A stretch of 46,545 nt of DNA, from contig JAJPKC010000311.1 in the NCBI GenBank assembly GCA_021323955.1, forward strand, positions 1-46,545, read 5' to 3'. A model generated the notes under the pieces. The model searched no databases, had not been told where the DNA came from, and saw nothing but the letters and a program-made list of their open reading frames with translations. A program made the position numbers and the translations under genes. The stretch comes from Oscillatoriales cyanobacterium Centralia_MAG_596. GTDB taxonomy: Bacteria; Cyanobacteriota; Cyanobacteriia; Leptolyngbyales; Leptolyngbyaceae. Numbering within the stretch: the stretch's first letter is position 1; every line of letters begins with the position of its first letter. Below, piece by piece: positions 6,028-13,941 of the stretch.

Positions 6028-6471
6028 ATGCCCAGTCTCTACGCCGAAATTGAAATTAATGCGTCCCGGCGGCGGGTTTGGCAGGTGCTTCTGCAAAAAG
6101 AGCACTGGCTTTATTGGAATACCTATTTGTATGACTGCGATGACAGCCGGCCGTTTGCACCGGGTCAGACCGTCTGGCTGTCGCTACGCCGCATTCCCGG
6201 CGATGAGGAAACAGAATTTCAGCCGATCGTCACCCTGATGCAAGCAGACGTGTGCTTGAAATGGGTGTCGTCCATTCCTGGCTTTGCGATCGAGCATGTA
6301 TTTCAGCTCCAGGAAACCGGGCGCGATCGCACCAAATACATTCATCAGGAGAATTTTTCCGGTGCTCTCACCCGCGTTTTCTTTCCCTTCATTCGCCAGG
6401 ACGAACAGCAAGGCATCCGCCGCATGGCGCGTGAGCTAAAGCGGTATGTGGAGGCATCACAAGCTGGTTAA
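6028..6471 (+). CDS. SRPBCC/polyketide-cyclase-like protein
   Basis: The product (147 residues from the ATG at 6028, which I prefer to the upstream ATG at 6016) has the START/Bet v1-like SRPBCC pattern. It begins LYAEIEINASRRRVWQVL with a Trp-rich first helix (HWLYWNTYLYD). Later come strands with an interrupted RTKYIHQENFSGAL and a C-terminal helix RRMARELKRYVEA. This fold makes a hydrophobic cavity for lipids or other small hydrophobic ligands, and the ligand cannot be read from sequence. Length is standard for the family. Its promoter would lie in the 169 bases shared with the divergent malic enzyme gene. The two AT-richer exported genes follow 85 bases downstream. Confidence 0.8.
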   Translation: MPSLYAEIEINASRRRVWQVLLQKEHWLYWNTYLYDCDDSRPFAPGQTVWLSLRRIPGDEETEFQPIVTLMQADVCLKWVSSIPGFAIEHVFQLQETGRDRTKYIHQENFSGALTRVFFPFIRQDEQQGIRRMARELKRYVEASQAG

Positions 6472-6555
6472 AAACTGGCACAATACCCATTTTGTGTGGG
6501 CTTGTCACAGCAAAAATCTCGTATTATTCTGCTGGAGCTTTATAAAGGGTGTGCA

Positions 6556-8022
6556 ATGCTCAAGCGAATTCCAGGCATTAAGCCTTTGGTGATGACGGCA
6601 GTGTTAATTGGGTCGAACTTTATACCACTACAAGCAATCGCTAACGATAATAAAGTTTTTGTTCTACCGAAGAACGATCTATTCCAAATCTCGACTCGAA
6701 AAGGCTTAAATTGGGCAGCTAATGAATGGCCTTACAACGCAACAATTGTCATTGAGGAAGGTGGACAACAGGTTGGCGAGGCTGTTTTAGACCGTCAGGG
6801 TTACGACTTTACAAATGAGTCTGATCCAAGCTTGCTCCGTGTTGTTATTAAAGCTCCATTTTCCAGTCCCGCACCCAATCGATTAGTTGCAGTTTCTACA
6901 TGGAGTAGCCGGACAGAGGGCTGCTTTATGGAGTTATTAATCCAGGTTTCGCTACCAACGAGTTTAAGTGGAATTAATGGACGTGCTCTGGCTCCCTATT
7001 TAGTTCCGGCACGGGTTCAGGTTGATCTGGGAAAAGAAGTGATCACTCTACAACCTAAACCAGGATCTGAAGCAAGGTATAGCGATCCTATTCCTTACGA
7101 ATACTACAACATTGCTAAAGGACAATATATTAGTGGATTTTGGCATCAAGCACGTAATGAGTTTGTCGTTACGTCTAAGCAGGCAAAGATGCTTCTCGAT
7201 ACCCCTCCCGGAAAAGCTCGAGTCATTCTTGCTTTTCCAAACGATCTGTACAAAACCTATGCTTATCCGATTGGAGAAGGAACTACAAAACGCTGGAAAG
7301 AGGTCTTCGGTTTTAATGATGATTGCAAAGCCAACTCTCCTTCAAGACCACTGCCTCCAGATCTGGTAACCCAAGCGAAGTGGACACCACCTAAGGGATA
7401 TTACTATCCGCCTGATGCGGAATTTAAAGAAGCTGAAACAGACGCTAAATCGCTAATGAAGACAGAAGTTAAATTGACCGCTGATGAGCGTAAACAACGG
7501 TATGCTTTTCAGCAGAGCTGGTCTAAGAAAAACGTTCTTTGGCGTTATCTCGGTAGTTGGTCGATCGACAAAAGCAACTTTTATATTTTTCCGGCTACCA
7601 AAAACAGCCAGGCAGCTTGTGTCGTTACAGAACGGCAAAGTAAACCGGATGTCTTTGAAGGATATGTTTACAACACAGCCAGTCCCAGAGAGATGCAGTA
7701 TCATAAACCGAGAGACAAAGATATTAGTGGACTTTATTGGCGAGATCAGCAGGACGTTTTGTTTGGGAAAGATACTGGACCTGGCAGGGTTTATCCAGTT
7801 TTTGCCAGTCAAAAGTCGATCACTATTTCAACAGATATGAAAGCAGATTTCTATCGCTTGGGTTGCCCCACTGCGTTCATTCCAGCATCAAAGTTTGTTC
7901 CATCTCAAGAGCAGACATCTTCTCAAGAGCGACGCGTAGTGAACCCATTGAGCCAGATCGCTCCTCGGCTAAGTTTTTCGCTTGCCCTATTACTACAGAA
8001 TTTTGCACATCGTAAACTCTAA
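6556..8022 (+). CDS. Unrecognised exported protein
   Basis: I do not recognise this family. The ORF track begins at a GTG (6496), but the ATG at 6556 is better. It is preceded by an AAGGGTG-type ribosome site and starts a clear signal peptide (MLKRIPGIKPLV, then a hydrophobic core ending near LQAIANDN). The mature part, about 460 residues, is rich in aromatic residues and predicted strand (repeated W-x-Y, GYYYPPD). It has scattered cysteines that could pair in the periplasm. A second hydrophobic patch (LSFSLALLLQ) lies near the C-terminus. Codons are visibly more AT-rich and HIP1 sites scarcer than in flanking housekeeping genes. The stop is 7 bases before the next ATG, so it forms an operon with the TPR gene. 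Confidence 0.65.
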   Translation: MLKRIPGIKPLVMTAVLIGSNFIPLQAIANDNKVFVLPKNDLFQISTRKGLNWAANEWPYNATIVIEEGGQQVGEAVLDRQGYDFTNESDPSLLRVVIKAPFSSPAPNRLVAVSTWSSRTEGCFMELLIQVSLPTSLSGINGRALAPYLVPARVQVDLGKEVITLQPKPGSEARYSDPIPYEYYNIAKGQYISGFWHQARNEFVVTSKQAKMLLDTPPGKARVILAFPNDLYKTYAYPIGEGTTKRWKEVFGFNDDCKANSPSRPLPPDLVTQAKWTPPKGYYYPPDAEFKEAETDAKSLMKTEVKLTADERKQRYAFQQSWSKKNVLWRYLGSWSIDKSNFYIFPATKNSQAACVVTERQSKPDVFEGYVYNTASPREMQYHKPRDKDISGLYWRDQQDVLFGKDTGPGRVYPVFASQKSITISTDMKADFYRLGCPTAFIPASKFVPSQEQTSSQERRVVNPLSQIAPRLSFSLALLLQNFAHRKL

Positions 8023-8029
8023 AATTCTG

Positions 8030-9229
8030 ATGAAACCAGTCACGTTAGCATTTCATACACTGCTTCAGTTAGCTGTTGTAGAACGTGTTTTGAATTTGTC
8101 GAGTGTCGCGCTGCCTGTCTCGTTAAATGGAGTAGGTGTGGTTAATTCTGGTTCATTGTTTTCCAGATCAACGTTGGTTGCTCAATCGCGTGAAGCAATC
8201 GCAGCGCTCAAGCAGGGTCGCGAACTGTATCAGCAATATAACTATGACGCCGCTCTGAGATCTTTTGAACAAGTAACTAAGCAAGACCCAGACTTTGCTG
8301 ATGCCTGGTATTGGCAGGGTATGACTCTGTACAATCAGCGCGACTATCAAAACGCGATCGTCTCCTTCAAAAGAGCGACCCAAATCGATGCTAAAAATCC
8401 AATCTTTTGGAAAGCGCGAGGGGATGCGATGAATGCTTTAGCACAATATACGCCTGAGCAAGATACCGCAATTGAGCGATATGATCTTGCCGTTGATGCT
8501 TACGATCGTGCCCTAAAATTCATGCCCGCTAATTCCATAAATGAACAGGCTGCAACATGGATGGGGCGTAGTGAATCGCTTTTTGCTCAAGGTAATTTAC
8601 TGGCTAGTCAGCAAAATCCTGTAGCCGCGTCACAAAAGTACCAAGAAGCCACAACTTCCTACAATGAGGTGATAAAGCTAGCAGCACTAACCAATGATAT
8701 AAATCAACAAGTTGATGCCCTATGGCAGCAGGGTGAAGCATATAGGAGAATCGCTGTCTATGGAGAAGAATCGAATAAGCAAACCTCTTATAGGGATGCT
8801 CTTAGCTCTTTTGATAGAGCCATTCAACTTAAATCAGATTTTTCTGATTGTTGGTACCGACGTGGTCGAGTCCTGGAAGAACTAAATCAACTAAAGGAAG
8901 CGTTGAATTCTTACGGTCAAGCAATACATATTGACCCAGAATTTGCAGAAGCTTTGCATTGGCAAGGAAAGCTCCTAGCTAAGTTAAAACGTTTTGAAGC
9001 AGCATTTGACTCGTTTGACAGAGCGACGAAGGGAACTATTCGGAGCGATTGGGCACTGGAAACAAAGCTAAATCCAGCTGAAATCTGGTATGGCCGTGGT
9101 TTAGCACTTTATCAGTTAAAACGTTATGAGCAGGCAGTCAGGTCATTTGATCAAGCAATTAAACTCAAGCCTGATTTCCCAGATGCACAAAAATATCGTA
9201 GCTATGCCCAGGACCAGTTAAATCGGTAA
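8030..9229 (+). CDS. Exported tetratricopeptide-repeat protein
   Basis: The ORF track starts at a TTG (7982), but the ATG at 8030 directly begins a hydrophobic N-terminal segment (LAFHTLLQLAVVERVL), so I use it (399 residues). After a probable export signal or anchor, TPR units are clear: ALRSFEQVTKQDPDFADAWY, then further copies near DYQNAIVSFKRATQID, ALSSFDRAIQLK, ALNSYGQAIHIDPEFAEAL and AVRSFDQAIKLKPDF. TPRs bind other proteins, so this is an adaptor rather than an enzyme. It lies 7 bases after the unknown exported protein and shares its AT-rich composition, so both are likely made together and act in the periplasm. A hairpin follows and may end transcription from both directions. Confidence 0.8.
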   Translation: MKPVTLAFHTLLQLAVVERVLNLSSVALPVSLNGVGVVNSGSLFSRSTLVAQSREAIAALKQGRELYQQYNYDAALRSFEQVTKQDPDFADAWYWQGMTLYNQRDYQNAIVSFKRATQIDAKNPIFWKARGDAMNALAQYTPEQDTAIERYDLAVDAYDRALKFMPANSINEQAATWMGRSESLFAQGNLLASQQNPVAASQKYQEATTSYNEVIKLAALTNDINQQVDALWQQGEAYRRIAVYGEESNKQTSYRDALSSFDRAIQLKSDFSDCWYRRGRVLEELNQLKEALNSYGQAIHIDPEFAEALHWQGKLLAKLKRFEAAFDSFDRATKGTIRSDWALETKLNPAEIWYGRGLALYQLKRYEQAVRSFDQAIKLKPDFPDAQKYRSYAQDQLNR

Positions 9230-9269
9230 TTAGGATCGCGAATTAAATAATCTGTAAATCTGAGATTTG

Positions 9270-9298
9270 GTCGGGACACGGCATTGTCATGTCCCGAC
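9270..9298. terminator. Hairpin between convergent TPR and caspase genes
   Basis: GTCGGGACA (9270-9278) and TGTCCCGAC (9290-9298) form a perfect 9-base stem with an 11-base loop, centred between the two convergent stop codons. A bidirectional terminator is the simplest reading. There is no long T-run on either side, so termination strength is uncertain. Confidence 0.6.
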
Positions 9299-9341
9299 GC
9301 AGAGAATTGCACCTTAATAAATCTGTGATCGTTGAACACAA

Positions 9342-12269
9342 CTACTGATCGCCTCCGATGGTGCTAAAGTTAGCTGGGGGCGGTGCAGCACGGACAGCAG
9401 GCGTTTTATTTGAAGAATCGACACGAACAGAAGGTGGTTCTCCAGAACTCAGAGAACTCGATGAGTTGTCAGGAGATGGGTTTGTTATAGCAACGGGATC
9501 AGGAGGAGGCGCGGCATTAATCGAGGCAAGTTCATCCTCTGCCTTTTGAATAATCGGTTGAGCTTTCTGCTTCCAGTAAGCAGTTGTTGCTTTCTTCGCG
9601 GTATCGTCTGCTAGAGTCCATTTTTTATCGGTTAGTGCCTGGTTCGCTTTAGCTAGAGTTGCCGCGTTATTTGTCCACTCTTGATTCCACTGGCTTATAG
9701 TCTCTTGTGCCTTTTTCCCAGCGGCATTATTTGTTGGAATGATCTTAAGTTCAGCGATCGCCTCATCTTTTTTCCCTGTCTGATACAGCTTCGTTGCTTG
9801 CTGGATTAAGCTTTCTGACCATGTATTAATAGCATCCTGTGCTAGGTGCCCGTATCGATCAGTATCATCAGGAATTTGAGCCGCAAGCGCGATCGCGTCT
9901 TGAAACTTGCTTTTTCCTGCAAAATCTTTTGCTTTATAGAAGCGACAGGCGTTTAGATGCGCTTGAGCATCCTTGAAGAACCGAAAGTTTGACGGTAAGC
10001 CTTGCGCTTGGGTGATGCACTGGTCGTACTGATGCCCTGAATCCAGGGTAGCAATCTGAGTGAGCGTGGCTCGGTCAGTTTGTTCTTCATACTGGTTCCA
10101 AAAATACCAGCCCCCGATCGCGCTGGCTGTCAGTACTGAAGCACCCGCTATTCTCTGCAACTGATGATGATGAGAGGCGAAAAAAGCGGATAAGCGTGCG
10201 ATCGCTGTTTGCACCAACGGAGTGCCAGGGATCAGTCGCGATCGTGTTGGGATGCTTGCTGGCAGGACATCAAGAAAATTGGCGATCGCCAACGGCTTTC
10301 GCTTTACTAGGGGCTGAGCAGGGTTCCAGGTGCTGATAACCTCTTCTTCAACCCGAATCGCGCTGGCATCATCCAGATTCAGCTTCCGTTGCAGGTTTCG
10401 TAGTCTGTTACGAGTTTGTGGACTGAACGGTATCCCAAATCGCTCAAGCACCTCGTTCAACATCTGCTTATACTTCACAAGCTTTTGGTAGTGTTGCTCC
10501 TGTCTGGCAATCAAGCGGGTTTTGCTGGGTGCAATATCGTCAGCCGTCAGCCCTAGTTGCTGTTGCGATTGCTGTAGACGTAGCAACTGATCCGCAGCGA
10601 GTGGATAGGTTTGAGCTAGCGCATCCTCTAACGCCTGCTCGTACTGCCGAAGTTTCTGCTGATGGGTTCCAATCTGAGCCGTTACGAGTGCAGCAATTTC
10701 AGCTATATCCTTTTGATCCAAGTTCAGGGATTGTGCTAACTGCTCAAGGCGATTACAGGTTGATTGAGATGGCAGATGTTTACGCTGCGTTGCTTCTACC
10801 CATGCTTGCTCATACTGTTGAAGCTGTTGCTGATAAGCATCGATCTGGCTAGTGATATGAGAAAGAATCGGGGTAATATCGCGATCGAGCAACCCTAGCT
10901 CCTGCTGTTTGCGGTGTAGCTCGTGCCGTTGTAAATCATTGAGAGGATAACGATTTTGAGTGAAGCCAGTTAGTGCTTCTCTGTATTGCTGCAACCGTAA
11001 CCAGTAAAGCTCTGCTTCAGCGATGACACGACTTTGAGTTGAAGCAATATCATTTGTGGTCAGTTCTAGCTGCTGCTGAAGCTGTTGTAACTGGGTTTGT
11101 GCGACTACGCTGAGTGGGTATTCTTGGCGTGTTGCTTCTATCAGCGCCCGCTCGTACTGCTGTAACTTTTGTTGCTGTAGCCCTAAGCGAGTTGTAACAC
11201 GTAATTCGATCTCTGAGACAACTTGTGGGTCTAGCCTCAGTCTTTGCTGTAACTGCTTCAAATTGCTGAGCGTTTTGCCATTCAAAGTGCTTTCACGCCG
11301 AATGGCGTTAGCAAACGCTTGCTCATATCTCTGACATGCCGCCTCAAACTCTCGACGATAGGGTTCAAGAACTTTAGCTTCAATCTCTTTTGCTTCAGCT
11401 TCCGAGAGCCCTAAACTAATTCGACGTTCTTCTAACTCCCACCGCCAGAACTCGGACACTTCACCGCGATCAATGTATTCCGGTTGGATGGCTTTGCGAT
11501 ATTCTGCTTCAGGATGAATCGGAACTTTAGCCAGTCGAATGCTGAAACTGTCCTCTCCACTGGTATAGATTTCGGGACTCATTCCAGATTGACTTTCTCG
11601 AACCTTCGTACCGGCATAACCATGCAATTCACCAACCGACACAAACCCATCATCATCTTGATCAGCCGCACCTTTGATCCCCTCGATTAAGTAGCGAGTG
11701 TAAACCGATAAGTCGGCTTTTTTATGCTCAAAGGAATACTGAACTGCGGTAGAGGAAGTTAAAATTGCTCGTCCTTCTCCACCCAGTTGGGCTCGGATAT
11801 CTACTGGTGATTGGCTATCTCTGAATAGCTCTTTTGCAAAAGCACCACTAAAGCAACAGTCCAAAATAATGACTTTTCGTTTCGATCGACTCCTGTTCAT
11901 GTGGGTATGAACAAAGTTAGCGGCTACAGCGGTGTAGTCCAGTAGCTCGCCGTCCTCTAAACTTTTGCAGGTTTCCTTTGTTGCAAAGAAAAACTTTGTG
12001 CTGTCGTGCTTGTCCTTGATACCGTGTCCTGAAAAGAAGAACAGCACCAGATCGTCTCTCTGCCGATTTGCAAATAGCCGGTAAACCGCAGCTTCCATCT
12101 CAAATCGCTTTGGATTTTTCAACACTGTCACGTCGCTGGCGGCAAATCCACCGATATCAGGATGCTGCAATACATCTCGCATTGCCTCTACGTCCCTTAC
12201 CGCACATGGAAGTGGACTCAATTCAGTCTCGTACTCACTCACTCCAATGAGCAGCGCTATTTTTGCCAT
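9342..12269 (-). CDS. Membrane-anchored caspase-family protease with EF-hand-like loop and 57-residue helical repeats
   Basis: This is a 975-residue protein in several parts. Residues 1-250 form a caspase (C14/orthocaspase) domain beginning IALLIGVSEYETELSPL. Both catalytic elements are intact: FFFSGHG (His82) and ILDCCFSG (Cys139). DQDDDGFVSVGE (203-214) fits the Ca2+-binding EF-hand loop spacing, and metacaspases are often calcium-activated. Residues 290-648 carry Q-rich amphipathic helices repeating at exactly 57 residues. A Pro/Arg linker leads to one transmembrane helix (about 707-724). A C-terminal segment of helical TPR-like repeats (750-910) and a disordered Ser/Pro tail follow. With an N-in orientation the protease faces the cytoplasm and the tail the periplasm or lumen. 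The ATG at 12269 lies just before the first strand. It shares a strand with the TIR and small membrane genes. Confidence 0.9.
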   Translation of the reverse strand: MAKIALLIGVSEYETELSPLPCAVRDVEAMRDVLQHPDIGGFAASDVTVLKNPKRFEMEAAVYRLFANRQRDDLVLFFFSGHGIKDKHDSTKFFFATKETCKSLEDGELLDYTAVAANFVHTHMNRSRSKRKVIILDCCFSGAFAKELFRDSQSPVDIRAQLGGEGRAILTSSTAVQYSFEHKKADLSVYTRYLIEGIKGAADQDDDGFVSVGELHGYAGTKVRESQSGMSPEIYTSGEDSFSIRLAKVPIHPEAEYRKAIQPEYIDRGEVSEFWRWELEERRISLGLSEAEAKEIEAKVLEPYRREFEAACQRYEQAFANAIRRESTLNGKTLSNLKQLQQRLRLDPQVVSEIELRVTTRLGLQQQKLQQYERALIEATRQEYPLSVVAQTQLQQLQQQLELTTNDIASTQSRVIAEAELYWLRLQQYREALTGFTQNRYPLNDLQRHELHRKQQELGLLDRDITPILSHITSQIDAYQQQLQQYEQAWVEATQRKHLPSQSTCNRLEQLAQSLNLDQKDIAEIAALVTAQIGTHQQKLRQYEQALEDALAQTYPLAADQLLRLQQSQQQLGLTADDIAPSKTRLIARQEQHYQKLVKYKQMLNEVLERFGIPFSPQTRNRLRNLQRKLNLDDASAIRVEEEVISTWNPAQPLVKRKPLAIANFLDVLPASIPTRSRLIPGTPLVQTAIARLSAFFASHHHQLQRIAGASVLTASAIGGWYFWNQYEEQTDRATLTQIATLDSGHQYDQCITQAQGLPSNFRFFKDAQAHLNACRFYKAKDFAGKSKFQDAIALAAQIPDDTDRYGHLAQDAINTWSESLIQQATKLYQTGKKDEAIAELKIIPTNNAAGKKAQETISQWNQEWTNNAATLAKANQALTDKKWTLADDTAKKATTAYWKQKAQPIIQKAEDELASINAAPPPDPVAITNPSPDNSSSSLSSGEPPSVRVDSSNKTPAVRAAPPPANFSTIGGDQ
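10326..11327 (-). repeat. Strictly phased 57-residue (171-base) repeats inside the caspase gene
   Basis: An anchoring tyrosine followed by an A-containing helix recurs at residues 315 (YEQAF), 372 (YERAL), 429 (YREAL), 486 (YEQAW), 543 (YEQAL) and 600 (YKQML). Every interval is 57 residues, with no insertion or deletion. Each unit continues with a Y/H-P-L-like turn, a leucine/glutamine helix (LQQLQQQL type), an acidic turn (DDIA, KDIAEI, RDITPI) and a last helix ending QQKLQQ. The repeats have diverged at sequence level, so this is an old, length-constrained array. The half-unit at about 285-310 suggests it began earlier. Confidence 0.85.
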
Positions 12270-12354
12270 GTAGAATAATCCGCGCTTTAGAGATGCTTAT
12301 CGGCTGAAATTTATTTTATAGTTATTCCCTATCGCAATTTGCCTTATTCGCTCA

Positions 12355-12460
12355 TTAATTTATCAATTGGCATATGGCCCTTCGCAGTCCTTTCGCCACG
12401 TCTAGAAACGCTTCGTTGCGATTTTCCCAGGTCGTGACGGGTCTGGCAATCCTCAGGCAA
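12355..12460 (-). pseudogene. Relic of a second TIR-protein C-terminus
   Basis: Read on the minus strand, these bases encode RPVTTWENRNEAFLDVAKGL followed by a stop at 12355-12357. The intact TIR gene 690 bases away ends with nearly the same peptide (KPVTTWENRDEAFLDVAKGL). The DNA also aligns well over roughly 80 bases (for example tcccaggtcgtgac in both). One extra base relative to the intact gene shifts the frame just upstream of this peptide, and no TIR core remains. It is best read as the tail of a deleted tandem paralogue. The stop codon of the small membrane ORF lies only 5 bases upstream of it. Confidence 0.8.
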
Positions 12461-12464
12461 ATCG

Positions 12465-12698
12465 TTAGTGAATGTTTCGCCGGTAATTGATCTGCCATGA
12501 CCGCTCCAATTGGGCTATACGTCGCTGCCTCAATCGCTGGCAGTAGCGTTGACGAACAAAGATGACGAGCGCACAGACCACAGGCAGTAACAGCACGATC
12601 GCTGTAGAGACGACCGCAGGATCGCTATTTGCTTGTGGTATGGAGCTTGCATCATGGCCGATGGTACGCACAGTAATTCCTAAGTGATTGTTCGCCAT
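12465..12698 (-). CDS. Small single-pass membrane protein, unknown
   Basis: The 77-residue ORF has a short polar N-terminus (MANNHLGITVRTIG), one strong transmembrane helix (VVSTAIVLLLPVVCALVIFV, about 29-48) and a very basic tail (RQRYCQRLRQRR). By the positive-inside rule the tail should be cytoplasmic. A convincing ribosome site (GGAGAAG) lies a few bases before the ATG, unusual among its neighbours and a good reason to believe the gene. I recognise no family. Its stop falls right at the edge of the TIR relic, so its last residues may be new sequence created by the deletion. It sits between the caspase and the TIR-EACC1 gene on the same strand and could anchor or regulate either. Confidence 0.5.
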   Translation of the reverse strand: MANNHLGITVRTIGHDASSIPQANSDPAVVSTAIVLLLPVVCALVIFVRQRYCQRLRQRRIAQLERSWQINYRRNIH

Positions 12699-13047
12699 GA
12701 TGACTTCTCCGGTTGGTTTATAGTCTGGCTGAACAGCGATCAGATACTCTCAGCGATCGCTGCCGCTCGCGGCTTTCCTGGGGCGGTGTAGACATCACGC
12801 TGATCAGAAACCTCAGGGCAAGCCAATTTGTCAGACACCGAACTCAGGCCGGTCTGCTATGCGCTCCTACCATGCCAGAAATGGCGGCTATAATTTACTC
12901 TCTCAGAATAAAATACACATCTGAATAAATGTCATCATTCGTCACAACTGGGTGAATCATTGACTGAGCAACCATGACGAAAGCGCCAGCCTGAAAGTTC
13001 TTGGCGGTTAGCGGATGGTCATCATTCAAGACTGGTCGTTAAGGTAT
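12699..13047. other. Gene-free gap between small membrane ORF and TIR gene
   Basis: Neither strand holds a convincing gene over these 349 bases. The 71-residue plus-strand ORF (12713-12928) has no recognisable features. A short motif, gtcatcattc, occurs twice (about 12930 and 13017). The gap is consistent with decayed DNA left by deletion of the second TIR copy, and should also hold the promoter of the small membrane ORF. Confidence 0.5.
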
Positions 13048-13941
13048 TTACTGCGCGATCGCGGCTCGCAGCCCTTTCGCTACGTCTAAAAACGCCTCAT
13101 CGCGATTCTCCCAGGTCGTGACAGGCTTGGCGTTTTTGGGCAGTGCTTGCAGCTTGCCAAACGGAGCACCCGTCCAATCACAGGGTTTGAGAATAATGGG
13201 GATCACTCTGGCCGCTCCAGCTTCGTGGCGTTTCATGGCCTGGGCCAGCTCAAGGTCATAGCAGTAGTCAGAGGCCAGAAAATTGGCGCTCACCAACAGC
13301 AGAATGACACCAGCAGAATTGAGATGCTCGTCGATTGCGTCGGCCCAATCGCTGCCAGCGGTAATCTCGCGATCATGCCACGCCGCAATGATCCCCTGGC
13401 GCTTCAGGATCGCGAGATGGGTCGCCAGTTCGTCCCGCAGGTCTTCATCCCGGTGAGAGTAAGAAAAAAAGACTTCTACGGGTGCGGTCGGGGTGGGCAA
13501 GCCTGGGGGATTGGCATTGCGGTCAGGCGCAGGAACCGTAACGGGCTGGGAGTCTGCAGCGACTGTATGCATGAGAAATGTCTGTGCGGTCTGAAGGGCA
13601 GCAGCTAACTCGGCCTGATTTCGCGCTTTAACCGTAATTTTTTTGCCCTCAAGTTCCACAGTCAGCTCAAGCGCCGCACTCCCCACGACAGAATCGATCG
13701 CGCCCAAAACGGCGGATGCCTGGGCGGGTGCGACTTGCGCCCTCAATAATCCCGCGAGAAACCCACCAAAGGCTTTGTTCCCAATCGGTGGATGGGGGTC
13801 TGGCACGCGATCGACCCGCTCTACCTCATCAAATTCGCGCAGTTGGCGCAGCAGGTTTTGCGTTTTTGACTCCAATTCTTCGCTATCGAGATCGGGGTCG
13901 ATTACGTTGAAGGTGAGGTAAACGGTTGGTCGGTCGTTCAT
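13048..13941 (-). CDS. TIR-domain protein with N-terminal EACC1-like domain
   Basis: Residues about 155-297 are a bacterial TIR domain: EVFFSYSHRDEDLRDELATH, a box with WHDREITAGSDW, and FLASDYCYDLELAQAMKRHE. Glu231 in that last box is at the usual position of the NADase glutamate of TIR enzymes, so NAD+ cleavage is plausible. The ending PFGKLQALPKNAKPVTTW is typical of effector-type bacterial TIRs. Residues 5-123 are strand-helix-strand with a Gly/Ala-rich hydrophobic hairpin (GGFLAGLL) and ELTVELEGKKITVKARN. This resembles EACC1, the effector-associated component of predicted bacterial conflict systems, here fused rather than encoded separately. A Pro-rich linker joins the halves. The ATG at 13941 has no obvious ribosome site. 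A C-terminal relic of a paralogue lies downstream. Confidence 0.85.
   Translation of the reverse strand: MNDRPTVYLTFNVIDPDLDSEELESKTQNLLRQLREFDEVERVDRVPDPHPPIGNKAFGGFLAGLLRAQVAPAQASAVLGAIDSVVGSAALELTVELEGKKITVKARNQAELAAALQTAQTFLMHTVAADSQPVTVPAPDRNANPPGLPTPTAPVEVFFSYSHRDEDLRDELATHLAILKRQGIIAAWHDREITAGSDWADAIDEHLNSAGVILLLVSANFLASDYCYDLELAQAMKRHEAGAARVIPIILKPCDWTGAPFGKLQALPKNAKPVTTWENRDEAFLDVAKGLRAAIAQ

Follow-up and report, generated by a model that had tools for sequence, protein, structure and literature searches.

An exactly phased 57-residue helical repeat, predicted to form a rod, in a cyanobacterial caspase of a conflict-system type

The window, meaning the whole 46,545-nucleotide stretch of DNA analyzed here (contig JAJPKC010000311.1 of Oscillatoriales cyanobacterium Centralia_MAG_596), encodes a caspase in which tyrosines recur at one fixed interval between the protease domain and a probable transmembrane (TM) helix, while the sequences between them have diverged. 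What holds the length of the unit constant while its sequence drifts? An earlier note on this DNA took the combination as the sign of a rigid superhelix, plausibly a scaffold or oligomerization ruler between the protease and the membrane. The features of the locus are collected in Table 1.

The phase itself was confirmed. The anchor tyrosines of the window protein lie at residues 315, 372, 429, 486, 543, and 600, giving five spacings of exactly 57 residues each; among 3,000 shuffles of the protein, a chain of six such tyrosines occurred in none and a chain of five in two, and the BLOSUM62 autocorrelation at lag 57 stood 14 standard deviations above the shuffles. An iterated unit hidden Markov model (HMM) recovered seven units, with spacings of 58, 57, 57, 57, 57, and 57 residues, the additional unit at Tyr257 preceding Tyr315 by 58; the array thus starts one unit before the span originally noticed (10326-11327, or residues 315 to 648). 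Strict length with loose sequence was likewise borne out. Pairwise identity among units 1 to 5 was 23 to 51%, and the period was kept in arrays down to about 37% identity; units 0 and 6 were 5 to 26% identical to the others in an ungapped comparison, in which a single extra residue in the loop of unit 6 lowered the score of that unit. At the DNA level, the only repeat in the array was one 44-nucleotide family with 64 to 73% identity, implying that the duplication is old. Searches of Pfam and NCBIfam with the window array found no matching family. The repeat, which is without an earlier name in the libraries and papers searched, is real and structured and lies within a known kind of conflict protein.

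Table 1. Coordinates of the caspase gene, its repeat units, and neighboring features in the window
Feature	Position	Strand	Residues	Basis or remarks
Island, ~6.6 kb	6455..13055	.		GC 0.43-0.49 vs 0.53-0.57 outside; missing in two congeners
Protein with probable signal peptide	6496..8022	+		Homologues follow kinase-TM genes bearing the same C-terminal module
TPR protein inside the island	7982..9229	+		
Caspase gene with repeat array, probable TM helix, and helical C-terminal module	9342..12269	-	975 aa	EACC1-associated type
Helical C-terminal module, predicted extracytoplasmic	9516..10037	-	745-918	AlphaFold2; homologous module in kinase-TM proteins
Probable TM helix, weakly hydrophobic	10098..10151	-	about 707-724	Sequence; aligned relatives with clear TM segments
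Repeat unit 6 (terminal)	10335..10472	-	600-645	Unit HMM; 1-residue insertion in loop
Repeat unit 5	10473..10643	-	543-599 (57 aa)	Tyr spacing and unit HMM
Repeat unit 4	10644..10814	-	486-542 (57 aa)	Tyr spacing and unit HMM
Repeat unit 3	10815..10985	-	429-485 (57 aa)	Tyr spacing and unit HMM
Repeat unit 2	10986..11156	-	372-428 (57 aa)	Tyr spacing and unit HMM
Repeat unit 1	11157..11327	-	315-371 (57 aa)	Tyr spacing and unit HMM
Repeat unit 0	11328..11501	-	257-314 (58 aa)	Unit HMM
Caspase domain	11535..12269	-	1-245	Presumed dyad His82 (codon 12024-12026) and Cys139 (codon 11853-11855)
Remnant of TIR-gene 3' end, 96 nt	12352..12447	-		75% identical to 13036-13131
EACC1-like domain fused to TIR	13048..13941	-	EACC1-like about 1-127; TIR 157-280	TIR_2 9.8e-18; PADLOC ThsB 209 bits; EACC1-like neighbours

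In the AlphaFold2 model of the window array, helices of 33 to 36 residues alternated with helices of 13 residues, and each of the longer helices spanned a unit boundary and carried the anchor tyrosine. The pLDDT was mostly about 85 to 97 across the array when the whole protein was modeled and averaged 95.8 (pTM, 0.68) for the array alone; the model predicts an ordered rod, and the disorder that would have spoken against a rigid array did not appear. In 57-period units, a hydrophobic stripe ran unbroken across the connector through positions 37, 40, 44, 48, 51, 55, 58 (equivalent to position 1 of the next unit), and 62 (position 5). A similarity to NusB found in a PDB search (E value of 0.013 over 72 residues) was dropped, as profiles did not make it significant. 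Spectrin repeats likewise form a rod in which helix C of one repeat passes without interruption into helix A of the following one; the predicted continuity of the window array is analogous, but the window repeat is only about half as long and had no sequence or fold match to spectrin.

A helix that passes through every unit boundary gives the best account of the exact phase. Each unit would consist of a core of about 42 residues, comprising the last part of helix A, which bears the anchor tyrosine, a short helix B with the motif L-x-x-L-x-x-x-L-G-L, and the start of helix C, followed by a helical connector. Because helix C would continue without a break as helix A of the following unit, unit length would amount to helical phase: one inserted residue would turn everything downstream by about 100 degrees, and three or four added residues, making one turn, would nearly restore the helix face. 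Such a cost of rotation per residue would give one exact period per array and periods that differ from array to array by about four. The seven-unit array may be a stiff spacer or scaffold from an effector domain to a sensor or deployed domain, in a conflict-system caspase carried on a mobile island, a reading to which a probability of about two in three was assigned. In the window protein, it would set a cytoplasmic caspase, with a possible role in defense or cell death, apart from the probable TM helix and, beyond it, a helical module outside the cytoplasm.

The caspase domain matched Pfam Peptidase_C14 (6e-22) and scored 161 bits against NCBIfam NF047832 (cut-off, 140 bits), which places it by score among the EACC1-associated caspases; its closest folds were MALT1 and metacaspases, and both catalytic residues were present, His82 in FSGHG and Cys139 in LDCCFSG, the former nearly invariant (at least 90%) in a 66-row alignment. 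Beyond the array, the AlphaFold2 model contained a helix at residues 713 to 744, with low confidence at 700 to 716. The C-terminal module recurred in two genomes on Ser/Thr kinases, again after a TM helix, and in both cases the kinase gene preceded one for a homologue of the protein, probably secreted, that is encoded at 6496-8022. This kinase-TM-module gene and the gene for the secreted protein of about 475 residues (L216:3302-6712 and L217:3041-6438) form a conserved pair. In a relative with seven units (L172), TPR and periplasmic-binding domains came after a TM helix. From these sequence comparisons, the caspase and array would lie inside the cell and the C-terminal module outside.

A ruler between protease and membrane was not supported. 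TM-like segments after the array were no more common in proteins with four or more units (19/31) than in those with three or fewer (27/58; P = 0.27), so that long arrays were not tied to a TM helix. In a further relative (L021), two units were followed by a charged coiled coil that replaces the rest of the array, and the TM segment and C-terminal module were kept, implying that the architecture does not require the exact phase. Together, these findings led to the array being read as one kind of spacer or scaffold: of the earlier interpretation, the ordered helical repeat of strict length stood, but the specific ruler between protease and membrane did not.

The profile search for the repeat in other cyanobacterial proteins, which the earlier note had proposed, showed that it recurs. 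A scan of genome contigs with the single protein found no relative, an initial array alignment had diverged too far to serve as a query, and a narrower array alignment reached 24 loci, nearly all from Nostoc. The unit profile, searched within the phylum, matched 58 of 386 genomes, and on this search the repeat has so far been found almost only in cyanobacteria. Among the loci collected, 148 proteins carried the unit, comprising 111 with a caspase, 4 with a TIR domain, and 33 others, about 17 of which were Ser/Thr kinases by eye, with one (L066) confirmed; CHAT-protease proteins with the unit were found later and lie outside this count. Most unit-bearing caspases had two units followed by FGE, GUN4, TPR, or other domains, and the variable C termini of unit proteins also included a periplasmic-binding domain after a TM helix.

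Several individual proteins illustrate this range. L051:3988-7713 had six units and GUN4 and had lost the caspase residues (GRG and DCG), making it a pseudo-caspase. The TIR proteins L111, L183, L184, and L055 likewise carried the units, with L111 ending in WD40-like repeats by eye and L183 and L184 ending in GUN4; L219 and L220 were CHAT proteases with two units and then an FGE domain; and kinase proteins with two units were L066 (with WD40), L067, L071 to L077, and L113. In two genera of one family, arrays (L056:886-5488, with a caspase, and L057:1-2416) were split at the same place, with a +1 overlapping frame that starts inside the last unit and carries that unit, the TM segment, and the C-terminal region. 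A possible ATG start of this second frame lies inside the anchor-tyrosine codon (TATG), and no convincing slippery site for a programmed frameshift was seen in either locus.

The same range bears on whether the array is instead a homotypic adaptor or oligomerization module that recruits effectors to one another, as effector-associated domains (EADs) do. EADs are defined in PMC7159879 by attachment to several effector types, and the unit is joined to caspase, TIR, Ser/Thr kinase, and CHAT domains. However, no Pfam EAD model matched the window protein or appeared among the families listed for 71 array relatives, the unit usually sits between an effector and a C-terminal domain in one chain, and no neighboring gene pairs sharing the unit were noticed in an unsystematic look. 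An adaptor or oligomerization function was considered unlikely.

The period in other proteins bears on a second alternative, in which the exact length is a relic of tandem duplication, kept by descent from a 57-residue ancestor without structural selection. The exact phase was also found in 14 other proteins with seven or more units, in Nostoc and its relatives and in one genome of another family (L172); spacings were 56 to 58 residues through the first seven units, and the span from unit 1 to unit 6 was 285 residues throughout, with 286 in one. Freely varying spacing among orthologues was thus not seen. Descent would readily account for the homogeneity of every array in its own period (53, 54, 57, or 61) and for the unit-for-unit orthology of L172 and L099, with whose units those of the window agree in order (of 120 unit orders, this one was the best or in the top four); unit 4 of the window and of L099 share the motif ATQRKH. 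Against a relic, the register was kept although units 1 to 5 share only 23 to 51% and the arrays about 37% ungapped identity (units 1 to 6 of the window versus L172 and L099, the most distant of the 57-period set). The caspase domain of these same pairs was 59 to 60% identical and had gained 4 to 5 gaps, a rate from which 5 to 6.5 gaps would be expected in the array; one was observed, and it was assigned to the loop of unit 6.

Furthermore, arrays differed by whole turns rather than by arbitrary numbers. Periods of 53 (L022), 54 (L056), 61 (L051, L174, L175, L177, L180, and L186), and 62 (the L052 group) were found, and the modal spacings of all 15 array sequence clusters fell in the set 53, 54, 57, 58, 61, and 62. 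The value of 57 is thus not universal for the unit, and is one of several allowed fixed values; many relatives of the window protein have two units only. The changes in length were located in the connector that links helix C to helix A of the following unit, where 61-period units have four polar residues added between positions 48 and 55. Change of the period by four-residue steps is only suggestive, since the 15 clusters are not fully independent. On balance, a duplication relic without structural selection was judged quite unlikely. It is very improbable that the array belongs to the usual TPR, HEAT, or coiled-coil types, for although it is all-helical and Gln-rich and gives sporadic weak Pfam matches to helical families such as Nas2_N, TPR, HEAT, and ARM models did not match it, its alternating 35- and 13-residue helices are unlike a coiled coil, and Foldseek with the predicted array returned no PDB or viral structure at an E value of 1e-3 or below. 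The Nas2_N matches in Nostoc arrays were taken as helical noise: no stretch passes alone in the two arrays inspected, one of which is above the cut-off when scored over its whole protein.

The stiff-spacer reading places the caspase in a conflict system, and the surroundings of the gene were consistent with a mobile accessory island. The two congeneric genomes (L210 and L211) lacked the island with its caspase and retained the EACC1-like-TIR fusion gene, which is thus kept in the genus without the adjoining caspase. The remnant of a second TIR gene lies as a direct repeat 82 bp upstream of the point where the caspase gene begins; this remnant, the low GC content, and the absence from congeners fit such a module. 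The EACC1-caspase two-gene conflict system has been described by Kaur et al. 2020 (PMC7159879, in the passages used) and is represented by NCBIfam NF047832. Likenesses to it include the N-terminal caspase of the window protein, above the NF047832 cut-off; the variable C termini of its relatives; and an EACC1-like gene directly upstream, mostly within 15 nucleotides, in 39 of 75 caspase-plus-unit loci with enough upstream sequence. In contrast, the EACC1-like domain in the window is fused to TIR and lies 778 bp from the caspase, and those passages of PMC7159879 do not mention a repeat array between caspase and C terminus. The Pfam EACC1 model matched 14 of 46 relatives of the window EACC1-like domain (best, 9e-5), and did not match the window domain itself.

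Surveys of cyanobacterial orthocaspases, which covered 473 and 671 proteins, used Pfam domains and, in the portions drawn on, describe caspases with FGE, GUN4, WD40, TPR, or periplasmic-binding partners, but their tables and passages contain no such repeat (PMC8283722 and PMC3501461). Similarly, the sensors diversified by DGRs in multicellular bacteria include caspase and kinase proteins with FGE/C-type-lectin C termini (PMC7517822 and PMC10907252), and many unit proteins have FGE domains, whereas the window protein has none.

The most interesting lead was a relationship to Tic110, the chloroplast inner-envelope scaffold (PF16940). The structure of a Cyanidioschyzon merolae Tic110 fragment (PDB 4BM5) was matched by the array profile at 9.5e-6 and by the unit-pair profile (A8) at 1.1e-6, with the next PDB chains at 0.7 and 0.13, respectively. 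Residues 39 to 256 of 4BM5 scored 35.6 bits, versus at most 11.9 in 8,000 shuffles and 2.3 when reversed, and in a reversed-alignment control Tic110 was absent and the best PDB E value was 0.22. The single 45-residue unit profile did not have 4BM5 among its PDB matches, and Foldseek did not list this 4.2-Å structure, which is largely poly-Ala. Conversely, Pfam Tic110 gave six matches at an E value of 1e-3 or below in 242 cyanobacterial genomes; one was in GyrA, and the other five fell in four proteins that carry the unit (two in L218 and one each in L219, L220, and L222). L218 reached 36.3 bits (cut-off, 27 bits). The L218 protein (L218:943-2604) consists of seven compact tandem units of about 44 residues and GUN4; its array alone had only 4BM5 as a PDB match at an E value of 10 or below, weakly at 0.19, and 44-residue arrays like it were found nowhere else in 340 genomes. 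Single-member Pfam Tic110 matches were mostly under the cut-off, and the window protein had none and is therefore not filed as Tic110. At the level of profiles, a repeat homologous to that of Tic110 would thus be a property of the repeat family and not of the window protein alone.

Tic110 has a rod of seven helix pairs with a motif, L-x-x-L-x-x-x-L-G, conserved in all Tic110s (PMC3823011), and this motif corresponds to helix B of the repeat unit. Unlike the window protein, which has a caspase at its N terminus and its sole probable TM helix after the array, Tic110 is a plastid protein with two N-terminal TM helices and without a protease, and its repeats are more compact, with each hairpin of 4BM5 taking up about 44 residues. 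The repeat looks related to that of Tic110, but helical hairpins can converge. Tic110 has been included in a list of plastid proteins without prokaryotic homologues (PMC3050876). It is tentatively proposed that the Tic110 repeats have in this unit a prokaryotic relative and plausibly their source, with the plastid ancestor or a cyanobacterial donor supplying a helical scaffold, taken from effector or signaling proteins (caspase, TIR, CHAT, or kinase), that became the stromal import scaffold.

Thus, the exact phase is given a structural reason that is testable by point insertions, and a single definable repeat occupies the unannotated region from protease to C-terminal domain in numerous caspases, TIR proteins, and kinases of cyanobacteria. 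Should the relationship to Tic110 be borne out, a core protein of plastid import would have relatives in cyanobacterial conflict proteins, and the origin of Tic110 would become testable.
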